Assembly (NCBI GenBank): GCA_016874935.1
Contig: VGSS01000008.1
Coordinates: 1 to 46,595 of the forward strand
Reading direction: 5' to 3'
From: Deltaproteobacteria bacterium
GTDB lineage: Bacteria; Desulfobacterota; BSN033; UBA1163
DNA length: 46,595 bases
In this document: positions 3,734 through 46,571 of the stretch, in pieces
How the letters are laid out: each line of letters begins with the position of its first letter
Numbering within the stretch: the first letter of the stretch is position 1
The notes under the pieces: generated by a model
Database searches by the model: none
What the model was told of the DNA's origin: nothing
Seen by the model: the letters and a program-made list of their open reading frames with translations, nothing else
Made by a program: the position numbers and the translations under genes

Positions 3734-5242
3734 ATGAAAATTCGAAGTTTTACCATTTACGACATTTTCAAAAGGAATGCGAAGATATTTAAGACACAGA
3801 CAGCCGTTTTGACTGACGGCGAAAAAATGACTTACGGAGAGCTTTTTAACCAGGTCAATGCTGTCTCAGGGTGGCTGAAGGGCAGGGGGATTAAGAAAGG
3901 CGACCGGATTGGCGTTCTGGCGAAGAACCATACCTATTATTTCCCTTTGATGGGCGCCATTGCCTCTTCAGGAGCGATCATGGTGGCCATCAATTTCCGG
4001 CTGTCGGCTGATGAGATAAAATACAACCTGACCAATACGGAACCCGTGATGATTGTCGTGGACCCGGATTTTGAAAAAATGGTCGATGATCTTCGGCCTG
4101 ACTGTCCTTTTTTGAAAGAATTTGTGACTTTTGGAACAGGAGGAGGGAATTACACGCCTTTCACTTCGCTCCTGAAGAGCCAACCGGTTGAGGCGGCGGA
4201 GGTCGATGGAGACGATCCTTTTGTCATCATACACACGGCGGCGGTCCAGGGAAAGCCCCGCGGAGCCGTGATCAGCCACCACAATCTCATTGCCTGCACG
4301 CTACAGAATATTGCCATCATGGGGCTCACGCATGAAGAGTCCTATCTGAACATCCTTCCCCTCTTTCACATCGCAGGAATGTTTGCGGCTCTGGTGACGA
4401 TGCATGTGGGCGGAAGAAATGTGATGATTTCGAAATTTGACCCGAAATTGGCAGGAAAGATGATCGATCAGGAGAGGATTACTCTGATCGGTGACTTTCC
4501 GCCCATTCTTCTCAATCTGCTCGATGAGCAGGCAAAGGGAGAGTTCACCCTATCGCCCTTAAAGCATGTTTTGGGGATTGATTTGCAGGAGACGATTAAG
4601 AGATATGAAAACCTCGGCTACGGTCAGTTCTGGCTTGTTTATGGGCAGACGGAGACCATGGGATTGACCAGCGTCTGTTCGAATCTCGAAAAGGCCGGAT
4701 GCGCGGGGAAACCCGGTCCGCTGGTCGATATAAAGATTGTGGATGAATTTGACAAAGAGGTCGAGACAGGAAAGGTAGGGGAAATCCTTGTTCGAGGTCC
4801 CCTGGTCTTTTTGGGATACTGGGGCGAGGAGGAGTTGACCCGGCACACCTTCCGGGATGGATGGCACCATACGGGCGATGCAGGCCGGTTTGACGAAGAG
4901 GGTTATCTCTGGTTTGCCGGAAGAAAAGCTGAAAAGGAGCTGATCAAGCCCGGGGGTGAAAATGTCTATCCGGTTGAAGTGGAAAAAGCCGTTCTTGAAC
5001 ATCCGGGCGTTCTGGAAGTCTCGGTGATCGGCGTTCCCGACCCAAAATTCGGCGAGGGGATCAAAGCCATCTGTGTCTTAAAACCGAATGTGAAACTGAC
5101 GGAGAAGGAGTTGATCGATTTCGTCGGGGGAAGGATCGCACGGTATAAGAAACCGGGGTATGTTCAATTTGTCGACTCGCTTCCCAAGAAGGGGGATGGT
5201 TCGATAGACCGGCCAAAGGTGAAGGAGTTGTACGAGAAGTAA
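3734..5242 (+). CDS. Acyl-CoA ligase-like adenylate-forming protein with altered A3 motif
   Basis: 502 residues, second adenylate-forming enzyme of the cluster, starting 13 bases after the first behind GGGGGGAG. A5 (LVYGQTETMG), A7 (WHHTGDAGRFDEEGYLWFAG), A8 (PGGENVYPVEVE) and a C-terminal lysine region (PKKGDGSIDRPKV) are present. The A3 phosphate-binding loop, normally YTSGTTGxPKG, reads HTAAVQGKPRGA: the Ser/Thr residues are replaced by Ala-Ala-Val-Gln while the distal Pro and Gly are kept and the Lys is Arg. The Arg of A8, in the position before KPGGE, is Lys-Glu-Leu-Ile. The protein may use a modified catalytic cycle or a distinct acid; a non-catalytic role cannot be excluded. Confidence 0.8.
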   Translation: MKIRSFTIYDIFKRNAKIFKTQTAVLTDGEKMTYGELFNQVNAVSGWLKGRGIKKGDRIGVLAKNHTYYFPLMGAIASSGAIMVAINFRLSADEIKYNLTNTEPVMIVVDPDFEKMVDDLRPDCPFLKEFVTFGTGGGNYTPFTSLLKSQPVEAAEVDGDDPFVIIHTAAVQGKPRGAVISHHNLIACTLQNIAIMGLTHEESYLNILPLFHIAGMFAALVTMHVGGRNVMISKFDPKLAGKMIDQERITLIGDFPPILLNLLDEQAKGEFTLSPLKHVLGIDLQETIKRYENLGYGQFWLVYGQTETMGLTSVCSNLEKAGCAGKPGPLVDIKIVDEFDKEVETGKVGEILVRGPLVFLGYWGEEELTRHTFRDGWHHTGDAGRFDEEGYLWFAGRKAEKELIKPGGENVYPVEVEKAVLEHPGVLEVSVIGVPDPKFGEGIKAICVLKPNVKLTEKELIDFVGGRIARYKKPGYVQFVDSLPKKGDGSIDRPKVKELYEK

Positions 5243-5248
5243 GAAGAA

Positions 5249-5290
5249 ACGATAGACGATGGACGAAGGATGAGAGACGAGAGATGCTGA
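5249..5290 (+). repeat. Short ACGANRG heptamer array
   Basis: Six 7-base units (acgatag, acgatgg, acgaagg, atgagag, acgagag, atgctga) begin 7 bases after the stop of the preceding ligase gene, the same placement as the long array behind livG. Confidence 0.75.
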
Positions 5291-5304
5291 AATAAATTCA
5301 GCAT
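5284..5304. repeat. Perfect 8-bp hairpin ATGCTGAA/TTCAGCAT
   Basis: atgctgaa (5284-5291) and ttcagcat (5297-5304) form a perfect 8-bp stem with a 5-base loop and are followed by gacatttt. It resembles widespread ATGCTGAA-type intergenic palindromes. No long T run follows, so it is more likely a dispersed repeat than a strong terminator. Confidence 0.6.
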
Positions 5305-5325
5305 GACATTTTATAGGAGTAGAAA

Positions 5326-6483
5326 ATGAGAAAAGTAGCCATTGTTGGAATTGGACATGGGAAATTCGGGGTGAGGTCGGATGCCTCGCTCCGGGAATTA
5401 GTCTTTGAGGCGGTGAAAGGTTGTCTCGATGATTCGGGTCTTTCACTGAGGGAAGTGGACAGCATGGTAACCGGTGTGGCTGGGGATGAATTCTCGTTCG
5501 GGATACAGCCCTCTGCCCAGGTCCATGACTATATCGGTTTTCATCCCAAACCCAATTTCCGGGTTGAAGCCGCATGCGCCACCGGAAGCGCTGCCTTAAG
5601 AACAGGATGGATGACGATTACCTCTGGTCTGGCAGACATCGTCCTGGTCGTCGGAGTCGAGAAGATGACAGAGGTTCCCACGAGCACGGCCACGGAGATC
5701 ATGGGCCGTGCAGGGGATGCGACCTGGGAGTATCCCTTCGGAACGACCTTTCCGGGTTACTACGCCATGATCGCCAATGCCCATATGGCAGAGTATGGAA
5801 CGACAGAAGAGCAGTTAGCCAGAGTAGCGGTCAAGAATCACTATTATGGAAGCCTCAATCCCTATGCACAGATGCAGAAGGAGATCACGCTGGAGAAGGC
5901 GGTTACTTCCTTTACCGTGGCCTATCCGCTCAAGCTTTATGATTGCAGTCTGATCACTGATGGAGCAGCCGCCATCCTCCTTGCTTCGGAAGAAAAGGCA
6001 AAATCGATTTCAAAGAAACCGGTCTGGGTTGCCGGACTGGGTTGCGGAACAGATGCGATGAGGCTGGGAGACAGGAAGTCATTGACCTCCCTTGAGGCCA
6101 CCCGCGAAGCGGCGAAAATCGCTTACAAAATGGCTGGAGTGGGGCCCTCGGATATCGATGTCGCCACGGTCCATGACTGTTTTACGATTGCGGAAGTGGT
6201 GGCTTACGAAGACCTCGGATTTTGCGAGAAGGGAGAGGGAGGGAAATTGATCGAGGCCAAGGAGACTTATGTGGGGGGCAGGATCCCGGTCAATGTGGAT
6301 GGAGGATTAAAGTCAAAAGGCCATCCTCTTGGAGCCACGGGCGTTTCCATGGCCATTGAAATTACGAAGCAGTTAAGAGGGGAAGCGGACCAGAGGCAGG
6401 TGAAAAATGCGGAGATCGGCCTGACGCACAATGTGGGCGGATCCGGACAGGTGTCATTCATCCATATCTTCAGGAGGCAGTAA
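5326..6483 (+). CDS. Thiolase-family acyl-CoA acetyltransferase (SCP-x type)
   Basis: 385-residue thiolase. The nucleophilic cysteine is in EAACATGSAA (about Cys84), the catalytic histidine in KSKGHPLGATG, and the His-Asp-Cys-Phe segment TVHDCFTIAE is typical of the sterol-carrier-protein-x subgroup. The C terminus LTHNVGGSGQVSFIHIF is conserved. ATG at 5326 follows TAGGAG. The next gene encodes a DUF35 protein two bases downstream; thiolases of this subgroup need or bind such partners (BbsAB benzoylsuccinyl-CoA thiolase and archaeal thiolase/HMG-CoA-synthase complexes are known examples). The likely role is thiolytic cleavage of a beta-oxo acyl-CoA made from the imported acid. Confidence 0.9.
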   Translation: MRKVAIVGIGHGKFGVRSDASLRELVFEAVKGCLDDSGLSLREVDSMVTGVAGDEFSFGIQPSAQVHDYIGFHPKPNFRVEAACATGSAALRTGWMTITSGLADIVLVVGVEKMTEVPTSTATEIMGRAGDATWEYPFGTTFPGYYAMIANAHMAEYGTTEEQLARVAVKNHYYGSLNPYAQMQKEITLEKAVTSFTVAYPLKLYDCSLITDGAAAILLASEEKAKSISKKPVWVAGLGCGTDAMRLGDRKSLTSLEATREAAKIAYKMAGVGPSDIDVATVHDCFTIAEVVAYEDLGFCEKGEGGKLIEAKETYVGGRIPVNVDGGLKSKGHPLGATGVSMAIEITKQLRGEADQRQVKNAEIGLTHNVGGSGQVSFIHIFRRQ

Positions 6484-34426: not shown

Positions 34427-34487
34427 AACGATAAAGGTTGTATCCGGAATTCCGTTTCACTTCACTCCGGATACAACCTTTATTGTT
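34427..34487. repeat. Long 22-bp hairpin at the breakpoint of mnmA
   Basis: Arms at 34427-34448 and 34466-34487 (core ataaaggttgtatccgga / tccggatacaacctttat) pair over 22 positions with one mismatch and a 17-base loop. There is no T run, so it is not a simple terminator. Homology to MnmA begins directly after it. Confidence 0.75.
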
Positions 34488-34488
34488 A

Positions 34489-35186
34489 TGTTTTATTCCC
34501 GAGGCCTCCTATCATTATTTTTTATCCGAGAGGCTAAAAGAGGAGATCACGTCCGGGCCTATCCTTGACAGGGAGGGAAATGTCCTTGGAAAGCATAAGG
34601 GGATCCCTTTCTATACGATCGGACAGAGAAGGGGGCTCCGTATTGCAAAGGGAAAGCCCCTCTACGTGATCGGAATAGACCGTGAGAAGAACGCTGTCAT
34701 TGTGGGAGAGGAGAGAGAGGTTTATGGGGATGCTTTCATAGTTCATTCCGTCAACTGGATTCGACCTCCCCAAATGGCTTTCCCCATTTCTTGCAAAGTA
34801 AACCTTAACGTTGCAATAAAAAGGGAGGTGGGCATGCTTCCAATCCTTTACAATTGCGGATCATTTATATGTTTTATGGGAAACAGTCGATGTCACCTGA
34901 GGTGGCCTTGGACGTATGCTTGAAACCTGAGCAGCAAAACGAGAAAAGGTGCCGCTGCAAAGGCTTGGGAAGTTTCGCTTCCCGTATCCGCCCAGCATAC
35001 CCACCTCCCTTTTTGTATGATATTTACGCAACTGCAAAGTAAAGATACGATACAACCACTCCGGTGCAGAGGCCATCCTCTTTCCCATGAGAGAGGATGT
35101 AGTGGAAGTGAATCTTAAGACTCCGCAGAAGGCCATCACTCCCGGCCAGGCCACTGTCTTCTATGACGGGGAAGTTGTTCTCGGAG
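34489..35186 (+). pseudogene. mnmA: tRNA 2-thiouridylase MnmA remnant (C-terminal part, interrupted)
   Basis: From 34489 the frame reads LCFIPEASYHYFLSERLKEE, TSGPILDREGNVLGKHKG, FYTIGQRRGLRIAKGKPLYV and ends …FPISCKV at about 34800, all MnmA-like. The next MnmA residues, KIRYNHSGAEAILFPMRE and KAITPGQATVFYDGEVVLG, continue only at 35041-35186 in another frame. A 241-bp insertion separates them (see the element at 34803). The N-terminal two-thirds, with the PP-loop and catalytic Cys, are missing upstream of the hairpin at 34427. It cannot make a functional enzyme. If a desulfurase once lay between the Rrf2 gene and this one, it has been deleted too (inference). Confidence 0.85.
34803..35032. 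mobile_element. MITE-like palindromic insertion with 11-bp target duplication
   Basis: tgcaaagtaaa occurs at 34792-34802 and again at 35033-35043, framing 230 bp. The insert has inverted ends: aaaaagggaggtgggcatgc near the left and gcatacccacctcccttttt near the right, with gttgc outside both. Taking out the insert and one duplicate rejoins the MnmA reading frame exactly (SCKV-KIRYNH). It encodes no protein, so it moved with a transposase supplied elsewhere. Confidence 0.85.
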
Positions 35187-35342
35187 AATCAGAAGATCGA
35201 AACCTTTTCACAGGCAGGAGATTTCCTATTGAAGACCGTCCGCTATCCCGGCCCTGTTTCTCTTCTGAGGGGAGAGGCCGATGGGACAGAGATGGAGAAG
35301 GCAGCCTCCATCACTGCCCGCTACAGCAAGGCGAAGGGGTAA
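35187..35342 (+). pseudogene. C-terminal fragment of a second tRNA-thiolation-like (NFACT-R-like) protein
   Basis: In a third frame, directly abutting the mnmA remnant, 51 codons read NQKIETFSQAGDFLLKTVRY, PGPVSLLRGEADGTEMEK, AASITARYSKAKG and stop at 35342. The pattern GDxLLKxxxxPGPxxLLxG…AAxITARYSKAK resembles the C-terminal domain of PP-loop/NFACT-R tRNA-modification proteins. The rest of the gene is absent. The family call is tentative; the codon pattern and clean end support a real former gene end. Confidence 0.45.
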
Positions 35343-35513
35343 CTGGTCGCTCTAACTTTTTTGGCGGGTGTAGATCGTTTTGTAGCGTTTGTTATCTACA
35401 GCGATACAACTGGCGCATTCTTCCGAAGAGAGATCATTGAAGGAAAGAAAATATCTTGTTTTTTTTTGATTTTTCACATATATTTGTCCAAAAATTTGAG
35501 GGGGGGTTCTTAT

Positions 35514-35846
35514 ATGGAGATAAACGTAAGGAAAGAAAAGAATATTTCCATTGTTTCAGTAACGGAAAGGATGGATGCGGTGACAACCCCTGAATTTGAA
35601 AAGAGTATGTCGGATTTAATATCAAAAGGAGAAAAGACTTTCCTGATTAACTTTTCCGCACTTGACTATATCAGCAGTGCCGGTCTCAGAAGCATCCTGA
35701 CTATCGCAAAGCGGTTAAAAGGAGAAAATGGTGAGATCCTCTTTTCAGGTCTGAAGGGAACTGTGGAAGAAGTGTTTAAAATCTCGGGTTTTTACTCTAT
35801 CCTTAAAATTTTTGAGTCCGAAGAGGCGGCTCTACTTAAACTTTAA
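35514..35846 (+). CDS. Anti-sigma-factor antagonist (STAS domain)
   Basis: 110 residues from ATG 35514, with GAGGGGGGG a few bases upstream. It is a single STAS domain like SpoIIAA/RsbV: NISIVSVTERMDAVTTPEFE at the N terminus and the phosphorylation loop LDYISSAGLRSILTI (Ser54/Ser55). In partner switching the unphosphorylated antagonist binds the kinase/anti-sigma protein, which is encoded 4 bases downstream. First gene of the exporter operon. The SpoIIE-type phosphatase that would dephosphorylate it could be the truncated gene at 45752, or another elsewhere. Confidence 0.9.
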   Translation: MEINVRKEKNISIVSVTERMDAVTTPEFEKSMSDLISKGEKTFLINFSALDYISSAGLRSILTIAKRLKGENGEILFSGLKGTVEEVFKISGFYSILKIFESEEAALLKL

Positions 35847-35850
35847 AGCG

Positions 35851-36267
35851 ATGAATGTCCTTTCGACGATAAAGGTTCCAGCTAAGCTTGAATATCTTCA
35901 CCGGATTATGGATGGTATATCTCAATGCGCCAGAGAACTGGGATTTGACCAGAAGAGGATCAGCGAAATAGAGTTGGCTGGCGAAGAGGCTTTAGTCAAT
36001 ATCTTCAATTATGCCTATCAGGGTAATGTGGGAGATGTGGAAGTTATTTGTAAACTTGATCGAAATGAAAGATTGATTATTGAGATCATAGATTCTGGCA
36101 CCCCCTTTAATCTCCTCTCCATTGAAGAACCGGACACTACAGTTGATATTTCCGAGCGCCGGATCGGCGGGCTTGGTGTATTTCTTGTTAAAAAACTCAC
36201 GGATGATGTTCAGTGCCGACGTGAAGGAGAAAAGAATATATTGACTTTAATCATTAATAAAAAATAG
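35851..36267 (+). CDS. RsbW-like anti-sigma factor/serine kinase (HATPase)
   Basis: 138 residues from ATG 35851. GHKL ATPase fold: N-box ELAGEEALVNIFNYAYQG, G1 box IEIIDSGTPFNL, G2 box RRIGGLGVFLVKKL. Proteins of this size and type phosphorylate the STAS antagonist on Ser and hold a target protein inactive. No sigma-B-type factor lies nearby, so the controlled partner may be something else, for instance the PAS-adaptor protein or a distant sigma factor. Close spacing (4 bases) to the STAS gene and 38 bases to the next one support one operon. Confidence 0.9.
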   Translation: MNVLSTIKVPAKLEYLHRIMDGISQCARELGFDQKRISEIELAGEEALVNIFNYAYQGNVGDVEVICKLDRNERLIIEIIDSGTPFNLLSIEEPDTTVDISERRIGGLGVFLVKKLTDDVQCRREGEKNILTLIINKK

Positions 36268-36305
36268 GATGGATTTATAAAACCGACGGAGGAGGGAGGA
36301 AGATT

Positions 36306-37835
36306 ATGAGTGATTTTTGGACTTTTCCAAGAAGATTCATAGCCATTCTCTTTGTTCTTTTGCTTACTTCTCCCGCCTTTGGTCAGGATCAAAAGAAAAA
36401 CGTCGGGAAGTTGACCCTTGCGGATTCCGTTGTCCTCGCCCTCCAGAATAACCTCGATGTAAAAAACGCCTTTCTGGATCGAATTGTTCAAAAATTCAAC
36501 CTCAAAGTGGAAGAAAATAAATTCTATCCTCAATCTTCCATTGCTCTATCGAGCAAACTTAATTCAAATTATAGCACTAATGGAAGAGACACCGGTGCCA
36601 ATCAGAGCAATAGCTATACGGCTTCGCTTTTGGTTCCCACGGGAGGGACATTCAGCTTTACCTGGGATTACAGTGCTGCGAAGACGGATTTTGGACAGGA
36701 CACTGTTTATAATCCATCTTGGAACTTAAGCTTTGTCCAGCCTCTCTTAAAAGGAGGAGGAATAGAGGGAGAAGGGATCAAGGTGGCGACTGCCTCTTTA
36801 AGGATTGCAAGGATCAACGAGGAAATGAATGTCCTTGGCCTAAAAAGCACGTTGACTAACATCGTCAATTCTACCATCCAGGCCTACAGAAGCTACATAC
36901 AGTCTCTACGACAACTTGAGATCAGCAAAAGATCGCTGGCAATGGCTAAAAAGCTCTATGAAATAAACAAGGCCTTGGTCGAGGCCGGTAGAATGGCCGA
37001 AGTAGAAATCGTTCAGACGGAGGCGGATATTGCCAACAGGGAATTAGGAATTCTTCAAGCTGAAAATAGCCTACAATCTGCACGATTGGCATTGATCCAA
37101 ATTCTAAACATGGAGCGAGAGACTCTCTTCGAGCCAATCGAGGAAACGGAGGCCAGAGTCATTCCTCCTTCCTTTGAAGGGGCGTTGAAAATCGCTTTGA
37201 ATAACAGACCTGATTATCTTCAAGTCTTAAAAGAAGTAGAAGTATCAAGGTTGAATTTCGTCGTTGCCAAAAGGAACCGTCTCTGGGATCTCTCTCTCGA
37301 AGGAGGTACAAAGCGGAATCTGAGCGGTTCCAGTTATGGTTCTACCCTTGAATCGGCTGGCAGACTTGGAAAGACCGACTGGAACGTTGGGGTAAGGCTT
37401 ACGATTCCCTTCCGGGACCTGACGATTGAACAGGCGTATGTGAGCGCAAAAGTAGCGATGGAAAAATCAGACTTGAATCTTAAGAAGCTTGGGATCAATA
37501 TCGGGATAGAGGTGCAGAATGCCATTAGAGATGTGGAGATAAAATTTAAGCAGATGCAGTTGGCTAAACAGGCGACCACGTTGGTTCAGAAGAAATTGGA
37601 GATTGAAGAGGAGAAATTAAAAGTAGGGCGAACCACAAACTTTCAATTGCTGAGCTTTCAGAGTGATCTGGTCAATGCTCAAGTGAGCGAACTTGGTGCA
37701 ATCATCGATTACCTTAATTCACTTACCAATCTTGACCAGATCCTTGGGACGACACTGATGACCTGGAAGATTGAGGTCAAGAGAGAGGATGAAGAGGTGA
37801 AACTGCCAAACTCCGAGAAGAAAGTTGCTCGATAA
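36306..37835 (+). CDS. TolC-family outer-membrane channel
   Basis: 509 residues behind GGAGGGAGGAAG. A Sec signal (AILFVLLLTSPAFGQ) precedes two OEP repeats with long heptad-rich helices (LRIARINEEMNVLGLKSTLT, LAMAKKLYEINKALVEAGRM, KLEIEEEKLKVGRTTNFQLL). The segment DSVVLALQNNLDVKNAFLD at the N terminus and LNSLTNLDQILGTT at the C terminus are typical. It forms the outer-membrane exit of a tripartite pump with the adaptor and ATPase/permease encoded next. Eleven bases separate it from the adaptor gene. Confidence 0.92.
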   Translation: MSDFWTFPRRFIAILFVLLLTSPAFGQDQKKNVGKLTLADSVVLALQNNLDVKNAFLDRIVQKFNLKVEENKFYPQSSIALSSKLNSNYSTNGRDTGANQSNSYTASLLVPTGGTFSFTWDYSAAKTDFGQDTVYNPSWNLSFVQPLLKGGGIEGEGIKVATASLRIARINEEMNVLGLKSTLTNIVNSTIQAYRSYIQSLRQLEISKRSLAMAKKLYEINKALVEAGRMAEVEIVQTEADIANRELGILQAENSLQSARLALIQILNMERETLFEPIEETEARVIPPSFEGALKIALNNRPDYLQVLKEVEVSRLNFVVAKRNRLWDLSLEGGTKRNLSGSSYGSTLESAGRLGKTDWNVGVRLTIPFRDLTIEQAYVSAKVAMEKSDLNLKKLGINIGIEVQNAIRDVEIKFKQMQLAKQATTLVQKKLEIEEEKLKVGRTTNFQLLSFQSDLVNAQVSELGAIIDYLNSLTNLDQILGTTLMTWKIEVKREDEEVKLPNSEKKVAR

Positions 37836-37846
37836 GGGGTAGAGAG

Positions 37847-39622
37847 ATGTCACCCACAGAGATGGTTTACAAAAATATTCTCGAAAATATGAGCGATGGG
37901 GTTATGACCATTGGGCTCGATGGTCGAATCATGACCTTTAACAGCGCTGCAGAAAAAATTCTTAATCTCAAGCGAGAGGACGCCCTGAATCGGTCTTTTG
38001 GAGAAGTCTTTTTAATGAGAGAGGGAAACGACGACTTTAACCAGATGATTCTCAATGCCGTCTATGAGTCGGAAAAAATCCACAATGCCGTCGTAAGCTA
38101 TAATACCGGGGAGAAAATTTTGACCCTTGTGGTCACCGCATCTTTTCTCCAGTCCTATGAGGTGGGGGAAAGGAAGAATGTGGCCGTCATCGTCGTCTTC
38201 AACGACATAACGGAAGTCGAACGACTACGCATTGCTGAGGTGCAGCTTACCGAAGAGCTGAGGGGAAAGCACAAGGAACTCCAGAATGCCTATCTCGAGC
38301 TTGAAGATACAAATAAAAACTTACATACAGCTCTCAAAAAGGTGCAGGTCGTCCGCATCTTTGCAACCGTTTTCGTCATCCTCTTTTTCCTCTCTCTTGG
38401 ATTTTTCGTATGGAAAAGGGCTTCTTCTCCTCTCCAATGGCTTGCAAGGGAGATACCCACAGCCGGAAGGGATGTGGCCATGGTGAAGAGCTTTGTAGTC
38501 ACACCAGGGCCTGTATCGAACAGTATTGCTCTAAAAGGGACTCTGAAACCAATAAAGATAGTCAATATCACGAGTCCCTTCAATGGAACAGTAAAGGAAA
38601 AGTTTTTTGAGTATGGACAGACGGTGAGGAAAGGGGATTTGCTTCTGAGGATGGATACATCTGAAACAGAGCTGAAGCTCAGAGAGGCGAAAATTGTATA
38701 TATCAAAGCCGACGATAGGCTAAAGGAATTGACGGACTGGGAGAGCGGTGATGAGGTATCAAAGGCAAAACGTTCTGTTACCAAAGCGAAACTGAGCTTG
38801 GATATACAGAAAAAGATTCTTGAGGAAACCGAGGCACTCTTTAAAAAAGGGATTGTTCCGGCCACAGAGTATGAGAACGCCAAACAGCAGTTTACGAGTA
38901 CAAAGATGGATTATGAGTCTGCCGAGCTTGAACTTAAAAGTACCATCGCCAAAGGTCAAGGAGATAATCTGAACATAGCTAATTTTGAGTTGGAAAATGC
39001 CAGGCAGAAATTAAAGGAACTCGAAATGCAACTCAAGCAATCCGATATCTATGCTCCTGTTTCTGGGACCATCATCCTTACCGAACTCGCTGACAAAGAG
39101 AAGAAAGGGAAAGCCATTGAAAAAGGGGCTTCCTTCTCTCAAGGGGAAATTCTCTTATCCATTGGAGATGCCGAAGGATTGTCGGTGACAACGAATGTGG
39201 ACGAAATAGAGGTCACAAGAATTAAAAAGGGCCAGGAGGTGAGGGTTACAGGAGATGCCTTTCCTGAGATACTTAAAGGAAAGGTTTTCCATATCTCATC
39301 ACAGGCCGGGAAGGGAGAAGGAGAAAGGAAGACCCCATCTTTTGAATTAAGTGTTGCGATAGATAAACTCTCACCAGAACAGAGGGAAAAGATCCGCTTG
39401 GGTATGTCAGCCAATATGGAGATATTAATCTATAACAACCCCAATGCTCTCCTTGTTCCGATTCATGCTGTGAAAATAGAAGGGAAAGATCGCTACGTTA
39501 TGGTGACAGATAAGAGCACGAAGGAATTGAAGAAAGTGAAAGTTGAAACAGGTGTAACAACCCTCGACTCAGTTGAGATTACGAAAGGACTGAGCAGTGG
39601 GGATGGGATCGCCCTCTATTAA
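37847..39622 (+). CDS. PAS-domain/membrane-fusion-protein hybrid (MacA/HlyD-type adaptor)
   Basis: 591 residues with an unusual order. Residues 1-125 are a PAS domain (YKNILENMSDGVMTIGLDGR, FNSAAEKILNLKREDALNRS, VVFNDITEVERLR); 126-165 form a coiled coil; 167-189 are a transmembrane helix (IFATVFVILFFLSLGFFVW); 210-591 are a periplasmic adaptor with lipoyl half ITSPFNGTVKEKFFEYGQTV, an alpha-hairpin (about 270-405), the second lipoyl half DIYAPVSGTIILTEL and the beta-barrel/membrane-proximal end. Ordinary MacA has only a short cytoplasmic N terminus. Here the sensor would sit in the cytoplasm and the adaptor in the periplasm, so ligand or redox state could gate the pump or be reported from it. 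The reading frame is continuous, with no sign of fusion by sequence error. Confidence 0.92.
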   Translation: MSPTEMVYKNILENMSDGVMTIGLDGRIMTFNSAAEKILNLKREDALNRSFGEVFLMREGNDDFNQMILNAVYESEKIHNAVVSYNTGEKILTLVVTASFLQSYEVGERKNVAVIVVFNDITEVERLRIAEVQLTEELRGKHKELQNAYLELEDTNKNLHTALKKVQVVRIFATVFVILFFLSLGFFVWKRASSPLQWLAREIPTAGRDVAMVKSFVVTPGPVSNSIALKGTLKPIKIVNITSPFNGTVKEKFFEYGQTVRKGDLLLRMDTSETELKLREAKIVYIKADDRLKELTDWESGDEVSKAKRSVTKAKLSLDIQKKILEETEALFKKGIVPATEYENAKQQFTSTKMDYESAELELKSTIAKGQGDNLNIANFELENARQKLKELEMQLKQSDIYAPVSGTIILTELADKEKKGKAIEKGASFSQGEILLSIGDAEGLSVTTNVDEIEVTRIKKGQEVRVTGDAFPEILKGKVFHISSQAGKGEGERKTPSFELSVAIDKLSPEQREKIRLGMSANMEILIYNNPNALLVPIHAVKIEGKDRYVMVTDKSTKELKKVKVETGVTTLDSVEITKGLSSGDGIALY

Positions 39623-39639
39623 TGTAAATTTCATGAGAA

Positions 39640-39737
39640 AATTCCAATCACCAAATAACCCAATTATACTTGGTTATTTGAATTTGGATATTGATTATTA
39701 TTTGGTTATTGGCGCTTGGTTATTGGATATTTACTCC
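39640..39737. repeat. AT-rich TTGGTTATT repeats
   Basis: caaataacc (39652-39660) pairs with ggttatttg (39672-39680), and ttggttattgg occurs twice more downstream. It separates the adaptor from the ATPase gene by 155 bases. No promoter can be named with confidence. Confidence 0.5.
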
Positions 39738-39777
39738 CTTTGTTTCATAAGCTTGCTATTTAATAGGAACACTTGCC

Positions 39778-40443
39778 ATGCTGAATATTGTAGAAATCCA
39801 TAAGACTTATCAAATTGGTCCTACCGAGATTAAGGTTTTGAGGGGGATCACCCTGACGGTGGAGAAGGGTGAGATGCTTGCCATCATTGGGCCTTCTGGA
39901 AGCGGTAAATCGACCCTGATGAACATGATTGGTCTTTTAGAACAGCCCACCTCAGGCTCTTATTTCATCGAAGGGAAAAAGATTAGTTACGATAATGACC
40001 GAGAACTTTCAAAGATCAGGAACCAGAAGATAGGCTTTGTATTCCAATCATACCATCTTCTCCCACGACTCACTGCCATGGACAATGTCGGTATTCCGCT
40101 TGTTTATCGAGATATGAAGGAAAAAGAGATCAAAGAGAGAGCAAAAGAGTATTTAAAGAAAGTTGAGGTGGAAGACAGGGCGCAACACAAACCTAATGAG
40201 CTCTCAGGAGGTCAGCAGCAGAGAGTTGCGATAGCCCGCGCCCTAATTGGGGACCCGGCCCTTGTCCTTGCTGATGAACCCACAGGGGCGCTCGATAGCC
40301 GCACCGGCCAGGAGATTATGAGTCTTTTTAAGAGATTAAATGAAGAGGAAGACATCACTATCATCATCATCACACACGACCCTAAAATTGCCCTTCAGTG
40401 CAAACGAAAGGTCGAATTAAAGGACGGAGTCATTGTGGGTTGA
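39778..40443 (+). CDS. MacB/LolD-type ABC transporter ATP-binding protein
   Basis: 221 residues. Walker A GPSGSGKSTLMNMI, Q-loop FVFQSYHLLPRLTAMDNV, signature NELSGGQQQRVAIARAL, Walker B LVLADEPTGALD, H-loop IIIITHDP. This is the mechanotransmission ABC class (MacB, LolD, FtsE). It energises the permease encoded 55 bases downstream. ATG 39778 has no strong ribosome site (cttgcc), so expression may rely on the upstream transcript. Confidence 0.93.
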   Translation: MLNIVEIHKTYQIGPTEIKVLRGITLTVEKGEMLAIIGPSGSGKSTLMNMIGLLEQPTSGSYFIEGKKISYDNDRELSKIRNQKIGFVFQSYHLLPRLTAMDNVGIPLVYRDMKEKEIKERAKEYLKKVEVEDRAQHKPNELSGGQQQRVAIARALIGDPALVLADEPTGALDSRTGQEIMSLFKRLNEEEDITIIIITHDPKIALQCKRKVELKDGVIVG

Positions 40444-40498
40444 TGTACTTTTTGACTCTCCCTTGACGGGGGTGTGTTCCAGGGCGGGGCGAAGCACA

Positions 40499-41674
40499 AT
40501 GATTATTAAAGCAAACATCAAAGAAGCTCTCCGAAGTTTATTGACTGGCAAGCAGCGAACCATCCTGGCCCTTATTGGCATTGTCATCGGGATTGCTTCT
40601 GTCATCGGAATGATATCCATCGGTACAATTGTGCAGCATGAGGCCCTCAGACAGTTTGAAGATATGGGAGTCGATATCCTAACGGTCAGAAAAGAATTTG
40701 ATGAAAAAAACAAGGCAGCAAAGTTCAAACTTTCCGACATCCTCGAGCTTAAAAACTACAGTCCTATTATTTTAGAAGTGGCTCCCTATATATCCTCAGG
40801 CACCACATTCTCCTATGGCGGGAAGACCATGTACATCGATATGATGGGGGTTACTGAATCCTTTTTCGATTTGAATAAGCTCAACTTGCAGGGCGGTCGT
40901 TTCATATCGGATCTTGATGAACACAGGTTTTTCTGTGTGATTGGTTCAGAAATAGCTCAGTTTTTAAGAAAGGCTGGTTTTGAGAATCCGTTAGGCCAGC
41001 AATTTGCGTCTGGTGAACGCATCTATACCATTGTGGGGATACTGAAGGCGATCTCCGAAGGTGGGGGGATAAGGCCAGGAAATATCAATATGTCAGTCAT
41101 CACCCATATTACCACTGCCGTAAGGGTTCAGGAAGGGGAGATCGAATCCTTCATGGCCCGGGTAGGTCCTCAAAGCCCATCGCAGATAAAAGCCGAGATC
41201 CAAAACTATTTCAGCAAGAAGGCAAAAGGGCTCAATTTGAAATTACGGACAGCAGAGGAGTTAATCGCACAGATGGAAAAACAGATGCAACTTTTCACCC
41301 TTCTTCTGGGAGCGATCGGCAGCATTTCACTCATTGTGGGGGGTATCGGCGTCATGAACGTGATGCTTATATCCGTAGCAGAAAGAAGAAAGGAGATAGG
41401 CATCCGTAGAGCCCTGGGAGCACAGAGGTTCGATATTCAGAGCCAGTTCATTATGGAATCGGTTGTCCTCTGTCTGGTTGGAGGGTTCATCGGAATAGGA
41501 CTGGGCATTGTGATTTCATATGTATTTTCGTACTTTGTTAAATGGGAATTCATGATGTCAAAATCTGCAATTATGTTAGGGGTTGGAGTAGCTACTGCGG
41601 TGGGTGTCTTTTTCGGTTTTTATCCTTCACGGTCTGCTGCGAGGCTTGATCCTATTGCCGCCCTGCGATCGTAA
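40499..41674 (+). CDS. MacB-type ABC transporter permease (FtsX domain)
   Basis: 391 residues from ATG 40499 (a longer frame from 40433 is not family-like). The N-terminal segment IIKANIKEALRSLLTGKQRT with TILALIGIVIGIASVIGMIS is the first helix of MacB, then a periplasmic domain of about 220 residues, then FtsX helices with ISLIVGGIGVMNVMLISVAE, RRKEIGIRRALGAQ and GVFFGFYPSRSAARLDPIAA. MacB-type pumps do not move substrate across the inner membrane; they push periplasmic cargo through TolC. Cargo could be the small secreted proteins encoded downstream (inference). Confidence 0.92.
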   Translation: MIIKANIKEALRSLLTGKQRTILALIGIVIGIASVIGMISIGTIVQHEALRQFEDMGVDILTVRKEFDEKNKAAKFKLSDILELKNYSPIILEVAPYISSGTTFSYGGKTMYIDMMGVTESFFDLNKLNLQGGRFISDLDEHRFFCVIGSEIAQFLRKAGFENPLGQQFASGERIYTIVGILKAISEGGGIRPGNINMSVITHITTAVRVQEGEIESFMARVGPQSPSQIKAEIQNYFSKKAKGLNLKLRTAEELIAQMEKQMQLFTLLLGAIGSISLIVGGIGVMNVMLISVAERRKEIGIRRALGAQRFDIQSQFIMESVVLCLVGGFIGIGLGIVISYVFSYFVKWEFMMSKSAIMLGVGVATAVGVFFGFYPSRSAARLDPIAALRS

Positions 41675-41681
41675 AAGGGAG

Positions 41682-42923
41682 ATGACTTTGAAAAATAAGT
41701 TAAATGAAGGGAATAATCTTCTAAAATATCTGATTAACCTTTGTGAAGATCTGTCAAAAGGACGGTACACAAAGGTTGAGGAGCTTTTTGAACACACCAA
41801 GGAAGCTAAGTATCCCCCTGTCGTCACGAGACTTGCAGAGGCCTTTGGCATGATGATGGTGAAGGTAGAAGCCCGCGAGTTTCGTTTAGAGCAAGTGATC
41901 GATGACCTAAAGAAGACAAAGATTGATCTTTCCATCGCAAAAGAGAGGCTCTCAAGCGAGAACATTCAACTCAAGCAGACTCTTAGGGGCAGATTCACAC
42001 CCACAAAAATTCTCGGAACAACCCCCCAGGTTGTTAAACTTCTGGAAGAGGTTGAAAAGGTTGCAGATACTCCTATCAACATCCTGATCACGGGCGAGAC
42101 CGGCACGGGAAAAGAACTGATCGCAAAAACCATCCACTACAATAGCAGTCGAAGTGAAAAACCCTTTATCCCTGTCAATTGTTCTGCCATCCCCGAGCCC
42201 ATTTTTGAGAGTGAGATGTTCGGCATTGAGAAAGGGGTAGCGACAGGGGTTGAGAAGCGCATCGGAAAGATAGAGCAGGCCAATGGAGGGACATTATTAC
42301 TTGACGAGATTGGGGATATGTCCCTATCAAGCCAGGCCAAACTTCTTCGGGTTATAGAGGATTATCAACTGGAACGAGTCGGAGGAAGAAAGGCTATTCC
42401 CGTTGATATAAGAATTATCGGCTCGACGAACAAAGATTTAAATAAGGAGGTAAAAAAAGGTGATTTTCGCAAAGACCTCTTCTATCGGCTCAATGTGGTC
42501 AACCTTCACCTCCCACCTCTTCGCGAAAGAAAAGATGACATTTCGTTGCTTGCTAATTATTTCTTAGAACAATGCATAAATAAGTTTGGTCGGAAAAAGA
42601 TGATATTTTCATCTGAAGTGGTAGAGAAATTCAAGGACTATCCCTGGCCGGGTAATGTGAGAGAATTGGAAAACGAGGTAGAGAGGGCTGTAGCCCTTTC
42701 TTATTCCGATACCATTATGGTTGATCATCTTTCTGAAAATGTAAGGGAATTTAGCATTGAGGAAAGACCGGAGGAAAAGCCTACTTCAATGAAGGAAGCA
42801 GAGATCCTTTTAGTCCGAAATACCCTTGAAGAATTTAAGGGAAATAAAACGAAGGCAGCTCGGATATTAGGACTCAGCCGCGAGGGTCTAAGAAAGAAGA
42901 TGAAACGGTACAGGATCAAATGA
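41682..42923 (+). CDS. Sigma-54-activator-type AAA+ regulator with Fis-type HTH
   Basis: 413 residues from ATG 41682 behind AAAAGGGAG, 7 bases after the permease stop. Residues 1-100 are a helical, HAMP-like/coiled-coil region with no receiver domain. AAA+ domain: Walker A GETGTGKELI (138), Walker B TLLLDEIGDMS (205), sensor regions DIRIIGSTNKDLNKEV and FYRLNVVNLHLPPLRERKDD. The L1 loop is GIEKGVATGVEKR (185-190) where the sigma-54-contacting GAFTGA should be. The C terminus KTKAARILGLSREGLRKKMK is a Fis HTH. It may act at the sigma-54 promoter at 43366 or as a repressor/noncanonical activator. Confidence 0.9.
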   Translation: MTLKNKLNEGNNLLKYLINLCEDLSKGRYTKVEELFEHTKEAKYPPVVTRLAEAFGMMMVKVEAREFRLEQVIDDLKKTKIDLSIAKERLSSENIQLKQTLRGRFTPTKILGTTPQVVKLLEEVEKVADTPINILITGETGTGKELIAKTIHYNSSRSEKPFIPVNCSAIPEPIFESEMFGIEKGVATGVEKRIGKIEQANGGTLLLDEIGDMSLSSQAKLLRVIEDYQLERVGGRKAIPVDIRIIGSTNKDLNKEVKKGDFRKDLFYRLNVVNLHLPPLRERKDDISLLANYFLEQCINKFGRKKMIFSSEVVEKFKDYPWPGNVRELENEVERAVALSYSDTIMVDHLSENVREFSIEERPEEKPTSMKEAEILLVRNTLEEFKGNKTKAARILGLSREGLRKKMKRYRIK

Positions 42924-43255: not shown

Positions 43256-43297
43256 TGCCAACATTGTTGGCATTTGTTGCTAATGAAGTTGGCATTT
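43256..43297 (+). promoter_or_regulatory. Putative upstream activator sites (TGCCAAC/GTTGGCA)
   Basis: TGCCAAC-ATT-GTTGGCA (43256-43272) is a perfect 7-bp dyad. The half-site GTTGGCATTT recurs at 43266-43275 and 43288-43297, 22 bases apart, i.e. on the same DNA face. The dyad centre is about 103 bases upstream of the -24 element at 43366, the usual distance for an enhancer-binding activator. Confidence 0.55.
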
Positions 43298-43365: not shown

Positions 43366-43381
43366 TGGCATGATATTTGCT
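43366..43381 (+). promoter_or_regulatory. Sigma-54 (RpoN) -24/-12 promoter
   Basis: TGGCATGATATTTGCT matches TGGCAYRNNNNTTGCW; the GG and GC dinucleotides are exactly 10 bases apart. The start codon of the first six-cysteine secreted protein is 50 bases downstream. Confidence 0.75.
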
Positions 43382-43430: not shown

Positions 43431-43844
43431 ATGAGGAAAAAGGTTAATCTGGTTTTTGCGGCAATGCTCCTTGCAGTGGTGTCGGCATTTTTAGTGGTGG
43501 AGGGCGCAGATGCGTTCTGCGTTTATATTTACGCGGATCCCCCTCCCCAACCAAATTATGTTAATGATATCCTTATCGTTGATCAATCATCAGGAGGAGA
43601 TTTTTGGAAGGTAATGCATAAAGGGGATAAGGAGTGCTGCAACTGGCAGGAAAAATCATGTAACAAGGGAGGCAAAAGGGATAGTATTGTGAGGTTTTCT
43701 GTGAGTTATGAGTATAATGCTCAACCTGGGGGCTGGGATGTCAGGTCAAAGCTTATCTGCAAAGACTTTGAAATACAGGCAGGGGGATGGCTGACAGTTG
43801 AAGGGAGTTATGGTAATGATCGATGCGTGCGTCATGATTATTAA
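43431..43844 (+). CDS. Secreted six-cysteine protein, paralog A
   Basis: 137 residues from ATG 43431, with AAAGGAGG 8 bases upstream. Sec signal KKVNLVFAAMLLAVVSAFLV, cleavage likely at ADA-F before Cys30. Six cysteines: Cys30, CCNW pair, CNKGGKRDS, ICKDF and CVRHD. Shared blocks with paralog B: FCVY, CCNWQ, CNKxGxxDSxVxF, ICxDFxIxAGGWxTV, C-x-RH. The even, invariant cysteines suggest three disulfides in the periplasm or outside. No known family recognised. It is transcribed from the sigma-54 promoter at 43366, downstream of a MacB-type export operon. Confidence 0.8.
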   Translation: MRKKVNLVFAAMLLAVVSAFLVVEGADAFCVYIYADPPPQPNYVNDILIVDQSSGGDFWKVMHKGDKECCNWQEKSCNKGGKRDSIVRFSVSYEYNAQPGGWDVRSKLICKDFEIQAGGWLTVEGSYGNDRCVRHDY

Positions 43845-44005: not shown

Positions 44006-44383
44006 ATGGAATTCTTGCGGAATGATCGAGCACTAAAACAACGGCGACGGGAGTTGAGACGTAACCAGAGCGATGCCGAAAGGGCCTTGTGGTCAAAGTT
44101 ACGCAATAAACAATTCTTCGGGATGAAATTCTTCCGTCAGTACAGCATAGGCCCGTATATTTTAGACTTTTATTGTCCAACGGTGAAGCTCGCGGTGGAG
44201 TTGGACGGTGGACAGCACAACCAGAGCGATAACAGAGAACGTGACGCAGCTCGTTCAGAGTATCTGAAAACCCAGAGAATTGATGTGATGCGTTTTTGGA
44301 ACAATGAAGTGTTGCTTGATATAGAGAGCCTCTTGTCCAAAATGGCGCTGAAAGTAACCCCCCTTCATCCCCCCTTAACTTAA
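44006..44383 (+). CDS. DUF559 endonuclease-fold protein
   Basis: 125 residues. The core matches DUF559 (Vsr/restriction-endonuclease-like fold): RELRRNQSDAERALWSKLRN, KFFRQYSIGPYILDFYCP, KLAVELDGGQH (catalytic ExD-like) and RIDVMRFWNNEVL. The gene sits between palindromic repeats (cccctcttaaggctaagagg before; ccccttaacttaagagggg after) and its last residues (TPLHPPLT) are encoded by the right-hand repeat. It separates two closely related secreted-protein genes, so it was probably inserted there. Function unknown; possibly a solitary nuclease carried by the repeat. Confidence 0.85.
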   Translation: MEFLRNDRALKQRRRELRRNQSDAERALWSKLRNKQFFGMKFFRQYSIGPYILDFYCPTVKLAVELDGGQHNQSDNRERDAARSEYLKTQRIDVMRFWNNEVLLDIESLLSKMALKVTPLHPPLT

Positions 44384-44466: not shown

Positions 44467-44862
44467 ATGAAGAAAAAGCTTAATCTGGTTTTTGCGGCAA
44501 TGGTCCTTGCTCTTTTATCGGCATTTATGGCGGTAGAGGGCGCAGAAGCGTTCTGTGTTTATAATAGAACGGATAAGGTCGTTAGAGTAGAGCAGGTCAG
44601 CGGGCACAAAGCAGGGTATGGATTTTCAAACAAGATCAGCCCTGACGACAATAAGTGTTGCAACTGGCAAACCAGTGACTGCAACAAAGAAGGCAACAAG
44701 GACTCAAGGGTTTCCTTTGATGTTTTTACCGAGCAGCGCGAAGCTTACAAAGCCGATGAGCGTATCTGTGCAGATTTCTGGATAGAAGCCGGTGGATGGA
44801 TGACGGTGGTCAAAAAGCATGATGATCGAGGGGATTATTATACCTGTGAACGTCATAAATGA
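44467..44862 (+). CDS. Secreted six-cysteine protein, paralog B
   Basis: 131 residues. The leader and ribosome site (atcaagaaaggaggaaaaac) are identical to paralog A. Sec signal KKLNLVFAAMVLALLSAFMA, cleavage near AEA-F before Cys30. All six cysteines of paralog A are kept (Cys30, KCCNWQ, DCNKEG, ICADF, TCERH), while the loop between Cys30 and CC differs in length. The duplication therefore copied the 5' region but not the sigma-54 promoter: no -24/-12 element is visible upstream. It may be read from the upstream transcript or from a promoter I cannot see. Confidence 0.8.
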   Translation: MKKKLNLVFAAMVLALLSAFMAVEGAEAFCVYNRTDKVVRVEQVSGHKAGYGFSNKISPDDNKCCNWQTSDCNKEGNKDSRVSFDVFTEQREAYKADERICADFWIEAGGWMTVVKKHDDRGDYYTCERHK

Positions 44863-45751: not shown

Positions 45752-46213
45752 CTACACTCCTCTTCTTCCCTTAAGATGAACGGTCAGGAGGGTGACATCA
45801 TCTGAATATGGGTCATCCCCTGTGAATTCCTTTATAGATTGAATAACCTCCCTGATGATTGCTTCTCCAGAATCACTTTTACTCTCCTCCACAATGCTCA
45901 TCAACCTTTTGTTAGAATAGGCGATTTTATCTCTATTCATGGCCTCCGTCACACCGTCAGTGTACAGAAGGATTTTATCACCGGGATTTAAGAGAACCCT
46001 CTCTGTCCTGTAAATAGCATCCGCCATTACTCCCAGGAGAAATCCGTCGGGCAACTGAAGCCATTCAGGTTTTTGACCAGAACGGATGATTAAGGGAGGA
46101 TGATGACCTGCATTGGAGAAAAGGAATTCTCCGGTTTTGAAGTTGAGTACACCGAGAAAGGCCGTGACGAACATCATGGGTTCGTTATCCCGGCAAAGTT
46201 CCCGGTTGACTAG
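45752..46213 (-). pseudogene. SpoIIE-type PP2C phosphatase, N-terminally truncated
   Basis: The C-terminal half of a SpoIIE/RsbU phosphatase domain: NRELCRDNEPMMFVTAFLGV, FSNAGHHPPLIIRSG, LLNPGDKILLYTDGVTEAMN and DDPYSDDVTLLTVHL. The first half with the metal-binding GDVSGKG segment is absent, because the homology stops where the tandem repeat starts at 46213. Such enzymes dephosphorylate STAS antagonists like the one at 35514. As it stands it should be inactive, unless the assembly is collapsed or rearranged here. Confidence 0.8.
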
Positions 46214-46571
46214 GGACGGAGATAGGGACGTTGGTTCAAATACAACTTGATATTGGGAAAGGGGTGAAGTAGCCTAAAGGCAAATGCCCAGACAAGCGAG
46301 ACTCGATGCCCCGGGGACATTACATCATGTGATGGTTCGGGGGATAGAAGGAACCAACATCTTCAGGACGGATAAGGACCGGAGCGACCTTCGGACGGAG
46401 ATAGGGACGTTGGTTCAAATACAACTTGACATTGGGAAAGGGGTGAAGTAGCCTAAAGGCAAATGCCTAGACAAGCGAGACTCGATGCCCCGGGGACATT
46501 ACATCATGTGATGGTTCGGGGGATAGAAGGAACCAACATCTTCAGGACGGATAAGGACCGGAGCGACCTTC
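46214..46571 (+). repeat. Tandem direct duplication, 2 x 179 bp
   Basis: 46214-46392 and 46393-46571 are near-identical (a few differences such as cttgatatt/cttgacatt and cccagac/cctagac). Each unit starts with ggacggagatagggacg, contains the leader and the first about 37 codons of a REP-associated transposase, and ends gaccggagcgaccttc. Confidence 0.9.
46284..46451 (+). pseudogene. Truncated REP-associated tyrosine transposase copy
   Basis: ATG 46284 starts MPRQARLDAPGTLHHVMVRG then IEGTNIFRTDKDRSDL, the N terminus of Y1/IS200-like RAYT transposases. After DL it runs into the second repeat unit (RTEIGTLVQIQLDIGKGV) and stops at 46451. It lacks the HUH and Tyr motifs. Confidence 0.85.

Follow-up and report, generated by a model that had tools for sequence, protein, structure and literature searches.

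The window considered here is a contig of 46,595 nucleotides from a deltaproteobacterium (Desulfobacterota; assembly GCA_016874935.1, contig VGSS01000008.1), read 5' to 3' on the forward strand. It contains a run of seven genes in which an RsbV/RsbW-like partner switch stands beside a MacAB-TolC-like exporter and a sigma-54 activator, and this text is concerned with what the switch may control:

35514..35846, forward strand: STAS antagonist, RsbV-like, with phosphoserine motif YISSAGLR (Pfam STAS E 1.2e-19; TIGR00377 70.3 bits against a cut-off of 53.45)
35851..36267, forward strand: RsbW-like serine kinase with N, G1 and G2 boxes (Pfam HATPase_c_2 E 3.1e-26)
36306..37835, forward strand: TolC-family outer membrane factor (Pfam OEP E 1.5e-44)
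37847..39622, forward strand: adaptor reading PAS, coiled coil, membrane helix, HlyD/MacA-like region (Pfam PAS E 1.1e-9, HlyD_3 E 5e-12)
39778..40443, forward strand: MacB-type ABC ATPase (Pfam ABC_tran E 9.7e-38)
40499..41674, forward strand: MacB-type permease with periplasmic core domain (Pfam MacB_PCD E 1.9e-31, FtsX E 4.4e-20)
41682..42923, forward strand: sigma-54 enhancer-binding protein with GVATGV AAA+ domain and Fis helix-turn-helix (Sigma54_activat E 6.1e-64, HTH_8 E 2.2e-11)

A preliminary description of this DNA had placed these genes in one direction with gaps of 4, 38, 11, 155, 55 and 7 bases, and both the open reading frame (ORF) calls and the sequence agree with it; each of its domain calls was upheld by Pfam. 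Two corrections apply. PAS and HlyD adaptor belong to one protein of 591 residues, and the 155-base gap between adaptor and ATPase holds a short imperfect repeat, so that co-transcription across this gap is at most presumptive.

The switch has the sequence features of an RsbV/RsbW pair. The SSAGLR phosphoserine motif is found in 19 of 20 aligned STAS proteins, including that of the window, the protein of locus L098 having NSIGLR, and the N, G1 and G2 boxes of the kinase are, by eye, kept in 20 of 21 aligned copies; a second kinase copy at L102 is degenerate in the G2 box. Among the four HATPase_c_2 matches listed for the window's own genome only the window kinase exceeds the curated cut-off, and within the phylum an RsbW-like kinase (E<=1e-15) is present in 74 of 395 genomes. 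The remark of the preliminary description that no sigma factor accompanies the switch agrees with Pfam, which finds none in the interval. The genome encodes three Sigma70_r3 proteins (frames of 586, 581 and 471 residues) and, since all three are by eye long primary-type factors, a Bacillus-type target of the SigB/SigF kind is not evident in this 90.9% complete assembly. SpoIIE has two matches in the genome, one on contig C29 and the other in the window:

45752..46273, reverse strand: SpoIIE phosphatase fragment (Pfam SpoIIE E 1.9e-34)

This fragment lacks its 5' part and adjoins a repeat of 179 bp at the contig end. Elsewhere an NMT1-like binding-protein gene is paired with a SpoIIE gene near STAS and kinase (L088, L093, L094, L096, L100 and L101; Pfam was run on L088), and in L027 and L028 SpoIIE is inverted and lies beyond the pump.

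The preliminary description had suggested that the switch might act on the AAA+ protein, and comparison of genomes fits this suggestion. Activator orthologs (E<=1e-110) occur in 10 of the 395 genomes and the kinase is present in all 10, against 74 of 395 overall (hypergeometric 3.2e-8); counted by genus it accompanies the activator in 9 of 9, against 57 of 245 overall (1.2e-6), although the relatedness of the genomes makes both probabilities optimistic. Activator and kinase share a contig within ~11 kb in five of the 10 (the window's own genome G000, G119, G167, G242 and G212). In G119, G167 and G242 the neighbours of activator, STAS and kinase include type III secretion genes; in G119 activator and kinase are divergent, and after the activator come SctW, a chaperone, STAS and SctV. 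Pfam identified FHIPEP, SycN/CesT and HrpJ/TyeA at L088, and L085 and L087 are assigned to type III secretion since they carry members of the L088 gene clusters. Of the 10 window proteins scanned with Pfam none has a type III secretion domain, a search that covers neither the other genes of the window nor the rest of the genome. All 10 aligned orthologs carry the GVATGV loop, so that the window activator does not have the sigma-54 contact motif GAFTGA; eight other aligned activators have GAFTGA, GAYTGA or GSFTGA. That GVATGV means no use of sigma-54 was considered and dropped, given the palindrome-promoter pairs described below, a sigma-54 factor gene in the window's own genome (PF04552, 214.5 bits) and the published Desulfovibrio activator (PMC4641369).

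The activator opens with a domain of ~85 residues (consensus LAE[AS]FGMMxVKVEARE), modelled as a helix, a short linker and a long helix with a mean pLDDT of 85.2. The term HAMP-like is used for it on a reading of the sequence and helix pattern; a fold search returned 0 matches at E<=0.001, with the Aer2 poly-HAMP only at rank 49. A profile of the domain gave 27 matches in 16 of 228 genomes, and those frames that were read, a part of the 27, are sigma-54 activators, HD_5 proteins (which are read here as HD-GYP), class III cyclases and standalone proteins of 90 and 100 residues. Fourteen of the 16 genomes hold the kinase, and genes for HD_5 proteins with this domain directly precede STAS in L029 and L096 (Pfam was run on the L029 protein). 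This distribution points to a common module that partner switches may use for docking or input. The standalone proteins are at L122 (1486-1755, 90 residues) and L123 (1486-1785, 100 residues), and their genomes, G118 and G147, hold the kinase.

Beyond the activator gene lies a candidate regulatory region followed by genes for small Cys-rich proteins:

43256..43272, no strand: palindrome TGCCAACATTGTTGGCA, proposed enhancer 1
43278..43294, no strand: palindrome TGCTAATGAAGTTGGCA, proposed enhancer 2, 22 bp beyond the first
43366..43381, forward strand: -24/-12 sigma-54 promoter TGGCATGATATTTGCT (18.2 of a maximum of 19.6 bits)
43431..43844, forward strand: small Cys-rich protein with a Sec-type signal (by eye; ORF translation), proposed regulon member and pump substrate
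44467..44862, forward strand: second small Cys-rich secreted protein, similar to the first and sharing its leader sequence

The site at 43366 is the strongest sigma-54 promoter in the window, and the best site in 20 random first-order Markov sequences reached 15.8 bits, the weights in both cases being a general sigma-54 consensus. It lies 442 nt past the activator gene and 49 nt ahead of the first Cys-rich ORF, and the two palindromes start 110 and 88 bp before it. Matches to the plain sigma-54 consensus (<=2 mismatches) are no more frequent in the window than expected (26 against 28.7), a scan for sigma-70-type promoters was uninformative (18 found, 16.2 expected) and terminator-like sites number 21 against 12.0 expected. 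A sigma-54 promoter for the seven-gene run itself was also considered and rejected, the best site in the interval scoring 9.8 bits against 18.2 at 43366. The first Cys-rich protein has no match in Pfam or NCBIfam, and none of the window's 15 best sigma-54 sites belongs to the second Cys-rich gene. Between the two genes there is a small ORF (44006-44383) that by eye resembles a DUF559/Vsr endonuclease.

The combination of palindrome and promoter recurs. In the ten activator loci a palindrome (<=2 mismatches) starting at -130 to -60 accompanies 6 of 13 sigma-54-like sites, against a background of 1.1% of positions, in a count that begins 140 bases into each strand. Given that the palindrome was first picked by eye in the window, the fair figure is the one that omits the window site, 5 of 12 (binomial 1.3e-7). 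Three of the six palindrome-bearing sites are in L029 and one each in the window, L083 and L088; by comparison the palindrome is present at 1 of 7 sites in pump loci without the activator and at 0 of 6 in kinase-only loci. The genes so marked include, in L029, those for a 129-residue secreted protein directly past the permease and a 145-residue secreted protein, in L083 a sigma-70-family factor beside the activator (genome G293), and in L088 a 149-residue protein after SctV. The same layout precedes a 130-residue secreted protein in L020 and a 173-residue secreted protein in G346 (L108). It is proposed from these arrangements that the activator may bind the palindromes as enhancers.

The AlphaFold2 model of the adaptor (mean pLDDT 81.4, pTM 0.41) has the PAS domain at ~1-120, a long helix at 122-191 with a hydrophobic stretch, read as the membrane helix from sequence and model together, and a HlyD fold with a helical hairpin within 272-397. 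The nearest solved folds by Foldseek are periplasmic adaptors, among them MacA (4dk0, E 2.1e-18) and chains of MacAB-TolC (9qgy, 5nik), and the TIGR01730 cut-off is reached (130.2 bits against 94.9). NCBIfam MacB is the best NCBIfam match of the ATPase; ATPase and permease score 262.9 and 184.7 bits against it, both below the cut-off of 966. The adaptor (E<=1e-40) is found in 11 of the 395 genomes, its own included, and also on deltaproteobacterial or proteobacterial contigs (L020-L022). A plasmid collection gave 15 adaptor records (E<=1e-20), none over the PAS region, with no match starting before residue 163.

Fourteen pump loci were read (the window, L020, L021 and L026-L036), leaving aside L022, which is on the contig of L030, and L023-L025, which are matches of 24-26%. 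The order TolC, adaptor, ATPase, permease is kept in 13 of the 14, with TolC last in L036, and the N-terminal PAS region aligns in 12, the adaptors of L030 and L031 aligning only from residues 119 and 141; this PAS count rests on alignment, Pfam having been run for the window and L030. The two PAS-less variants (L030 10218-11696, L031 12056-13537) come from genomes G293 and G233, where the kinase is on a different contig. By a hydrophobicity rule, small ORFs with signal-like N-termini lie within ~750 nt after the permease in 7 of the 13 other pump loci; the rule skips the window, where the frame opens at an upstream TTG, and the window is therefore outside this count. MacAB-TolC is reported to carry out of the periplasm a small disulfide-bonded protein that Sec delivers there (PMC5985334) and, from this precedent and their place, the Cys-rich proteins of the window may be exported by the pump. 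L029 also encodes a Tll0287-HAMP-PAS sensor (4529-5728), which has no recognised output domain and lies 5' of the genes for the HD_5 protein, STAS, kinase and pump.

The reading tentatively favoured, held at a little under even confidence, is that the STAS/kinase partner switch controls the sigma-54 activator, which in turn drives expression of small proteins, the possible cargo of the pump. It starts from domains, linkage, co-occurrence, promoter and palindromes as they appear in the sequence, and from these we infer the contact between kinase and activator, enhancer binding, the direction of control, the substrate and the role of the PAS domain. The output of the switch would be the neighbouring sigma-54 activator and not a sigma-70-type factor. 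While STAS is phosphorylated, free kinase would bind the HAMP-like N-terminal domain of the activator and block it; the partner that touches the activator could be either the kinase or STAS. Upon a signal a SpoIIE phosphatase would dephosphorylate STAS, and dephosphorylated STAS would draw the kinase off the activator, which, once freed, would form a ring on the tandem TGCCAAC-N3-GTTGGCA-type enhancers and fire the promoter at 43366. The small Sec-exported Cys-rich proteins so produced would then be moved from the periplasm to the outside by the MacAB-TolC-like pump, and the PAS domain would report a cytoplasmic condition to the adaptor. A wider version, in which the N-terminal domain is a docking module for RsbW or RsbV on sigma-54 activators, HD-GYP-type enzymes and class III cyclases and here serves a PAS-gated circuit that senses, expresses and exports, is doubtful.

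Several observations weigh against control of the activator by the switch. The phosphatase at the locus is a fragment, the genome is an assembly of 206 contigs that is 90.9% complete, and the activator loop departs from GAFTGA. The kinase occurs without the activator in 64 of the 74 kinase genomes, and two of the 16 genomes with the N-terminal domain (G126 and G183) are without the kinase at E 1e-15. Four of the ten activator loci (L084, L085, L086 and L087) have no palindrome at a sigma-54-like site, as is also the case for L089 and L090. Furthermore, G346 and G398, the genome of L020, have the palindrome-promoter layout although no GVATGV activator was found in either; in seven genomes that include these two, 30 of 33 activator matches were readable and all 30 have GAFTGA, GSFTGA or GAYTGA. 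Given palindromes in genomes without a GVATGV activator, another activator may use them and the association is not exclusive. Finally, a strict promoter-enhancer pattern gave 8 matches in 6 of the 395 genomes, against 4 matches in 4 genomes for the reversed control; four of the eight look like chance, the window's own site was missed because its gap of 93 exceeds the limit of 88, and the pattern is not used as support.

The best surviving alternative is that the switch acts on the pump, for example by way of the PAS domain of the adaptor or through STAS binding the ABC ATPase, and that the activator is a separate neighbour. The preliminary description had raised this possibility too. In its favour, STAS and kinase adjoin the pump in 5 of the 14 loci in two arrangements (5' in the window, L027, L028 and L029; 3' in L020), four of these without a directly adjoining GVATGV activator, and the kinase is present in 7 of the 11 pump-positive genomes (hypergeometric 0.0011). 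However, the remaining 9 pump loci have no adjacent STAS and kinase and the PAS region is kept in 7 of them, the association of kinase with activator (10 of 10) is tighter than that with the pump (7 of 11), and the former is also seen in type III secretion loci where no pump is seen. Action on the pump is considered unlikely.

It is less likely again that the genes adjoin one another but have no function in common, having been assembled by horizontal transfer and rearrangement. In favour of such an origin, the adaptor was not found at E<=1e-60 in the 16 other genomes of the family that were searched, 5' of the run there is a broken mnmA-like gene containing a 21-bp inverted-repeat element, and the contig end has repeats. 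The complete gene order also bears on this point. The preliminary description had proposed a single seven-gene operon, to be refuted by a lack of conserved order in related genomes, and the neighbourhood check found the complete order only in the window among the 14 pump loci; the AAA+ gene directly adjoins the pump only there, and in L029 the two are ~5.5 kb apart. The guess of a link between switch and activator fits the comparison of genomes; the single conserved operon is not supported. The term self-contained was likewise too strong, as the neighbouring phosphatase is a fragment and the proposed sigma-54 targets lie just downstream, outside the interval. Nevertheless, the repeated linkage of STAS and kinase to the pump and to the activator, together with their phyletic co-occurrence, argues against chance neighbours. 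Control of an ordinary sigma-70-family factor elsewhere in the genome, as in Bacillus, is improbable: the family resemblance to RsbV/RsbW and the L083 factor that adjoins the activator with the same palindrome and promoter speak for it, but the three Sigma70_r3 proteins of the genome are all of the long primary type by eye and the interval holds no sigma factor, though one may lie on the missing part of the genome.

The GVATGV activator itself is already known from type III secretion in Desulfovibrio. DVUA0100 of N. vulgaris Hildenborough is described as a GVATGV sigma-54 activator of type III secretion that is predicted to act on sigma-54 promoters, with an N-terminal region that maybe encompasses an unknown sensing domain (PMC4641369). 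It shares with the window activator the GVATGV loop, a conserved N-terminal region and a predicted action at sigma-54 promoters, and differs in that it controls a type III secretion cluster, whereas the neighbours of the window gene are a MacAB-type pump and STAS-kinase. The main text of that paper contains no mention of STAS, anti-sigma, RsbW, SpoIIE or phosphatase. In N. vulgaris DP4, whose GVATGV protein was taken as the counterpart of DVUA0100, the activator lies in a type III secretion operon and is followed by an ORF of 124 residues without a Pfam match and then by a Cache-HAMP-SpoIIE phosphatase; the annotation of the 33 kb examined shows neither STAS nor kinase. The surprising and testable part is the link from switch to activator, recurring as it does in distant relatives.

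The switch resembles RsbU-RsbV-RsbW and BtrU-BtrV-BtrW in its STAS phosphoserine motif, its HATPase_c_2 kinase and the nearby SpoIIE, but has no evident sigma-70-type target, the candidate output being a sigma-54 activator. Btr partner switching is also reported to bear on type III secretion, and several Gram-negative STAS/RsbW-type modules are described as having no known target (PMC8256260). The window and related loci offer a concrete candidate for such a target, with a delimited N-terminal domain, and a promoter and enhancers that are likewise candidates. If the proposal is correct, it would explain how a GVATGV sigma-54 activator without a known sensor domain is controlled, and MacAB-type pumps would gain a built-in cytoplasmic sensor. 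The exporter is like MacAB-TolC in its MacB-type ATPase and permease, HlyD-class adaptor and TolC-family channel; it differs in having ATPase and permease as separate proteins and an N-terminal PAS on the adaptor, and its proteins do not reach the NCBIfam MacA and MacB cut-offs. PrsK/PrsR, described for PEP-CTERM proteins, is similar in placing a sigma-54 promoter and upstream motif before genes for secreted proteins, but in that account the activator is the response regulator of a two-component system, motif 1 has TTTACA at its end and no partner switch is proposed (PMC1569441). Within a limited literature (titles, starts of abstracts and term counts) no report was found of a PAS-adaptor fusion, of partner switching on a sigma-54 activator or of the N-terminal domain shared with other outputs.

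Some further observations concern the flanks of the window and more distant loci. The broken mnmA-like gene (34438-35440, by eye) has lost its N-terminal part and contains a stretch bounded by 21-bp inverted repeats (34818-34838 and 34994-35014). At the contig end, next to the SpoIIE fragment, a 179-bp unit with a frame read as transposase-like stands in tandem (46214-46571, 99% identical), which may be an effect of assembly. At L089 (9221-10948) and L090 (9472-11270) there are GVATGV activators with a diverged N-terminus, each divergent from a similar sigma-54-like site before a gene for a protein of 173 residues, and in L090 an ABC exporter gene (ABC_membrane and ABC_tran) lies beside the activator; these loci possibly represent a third kind of export system with a GVATGV activator.

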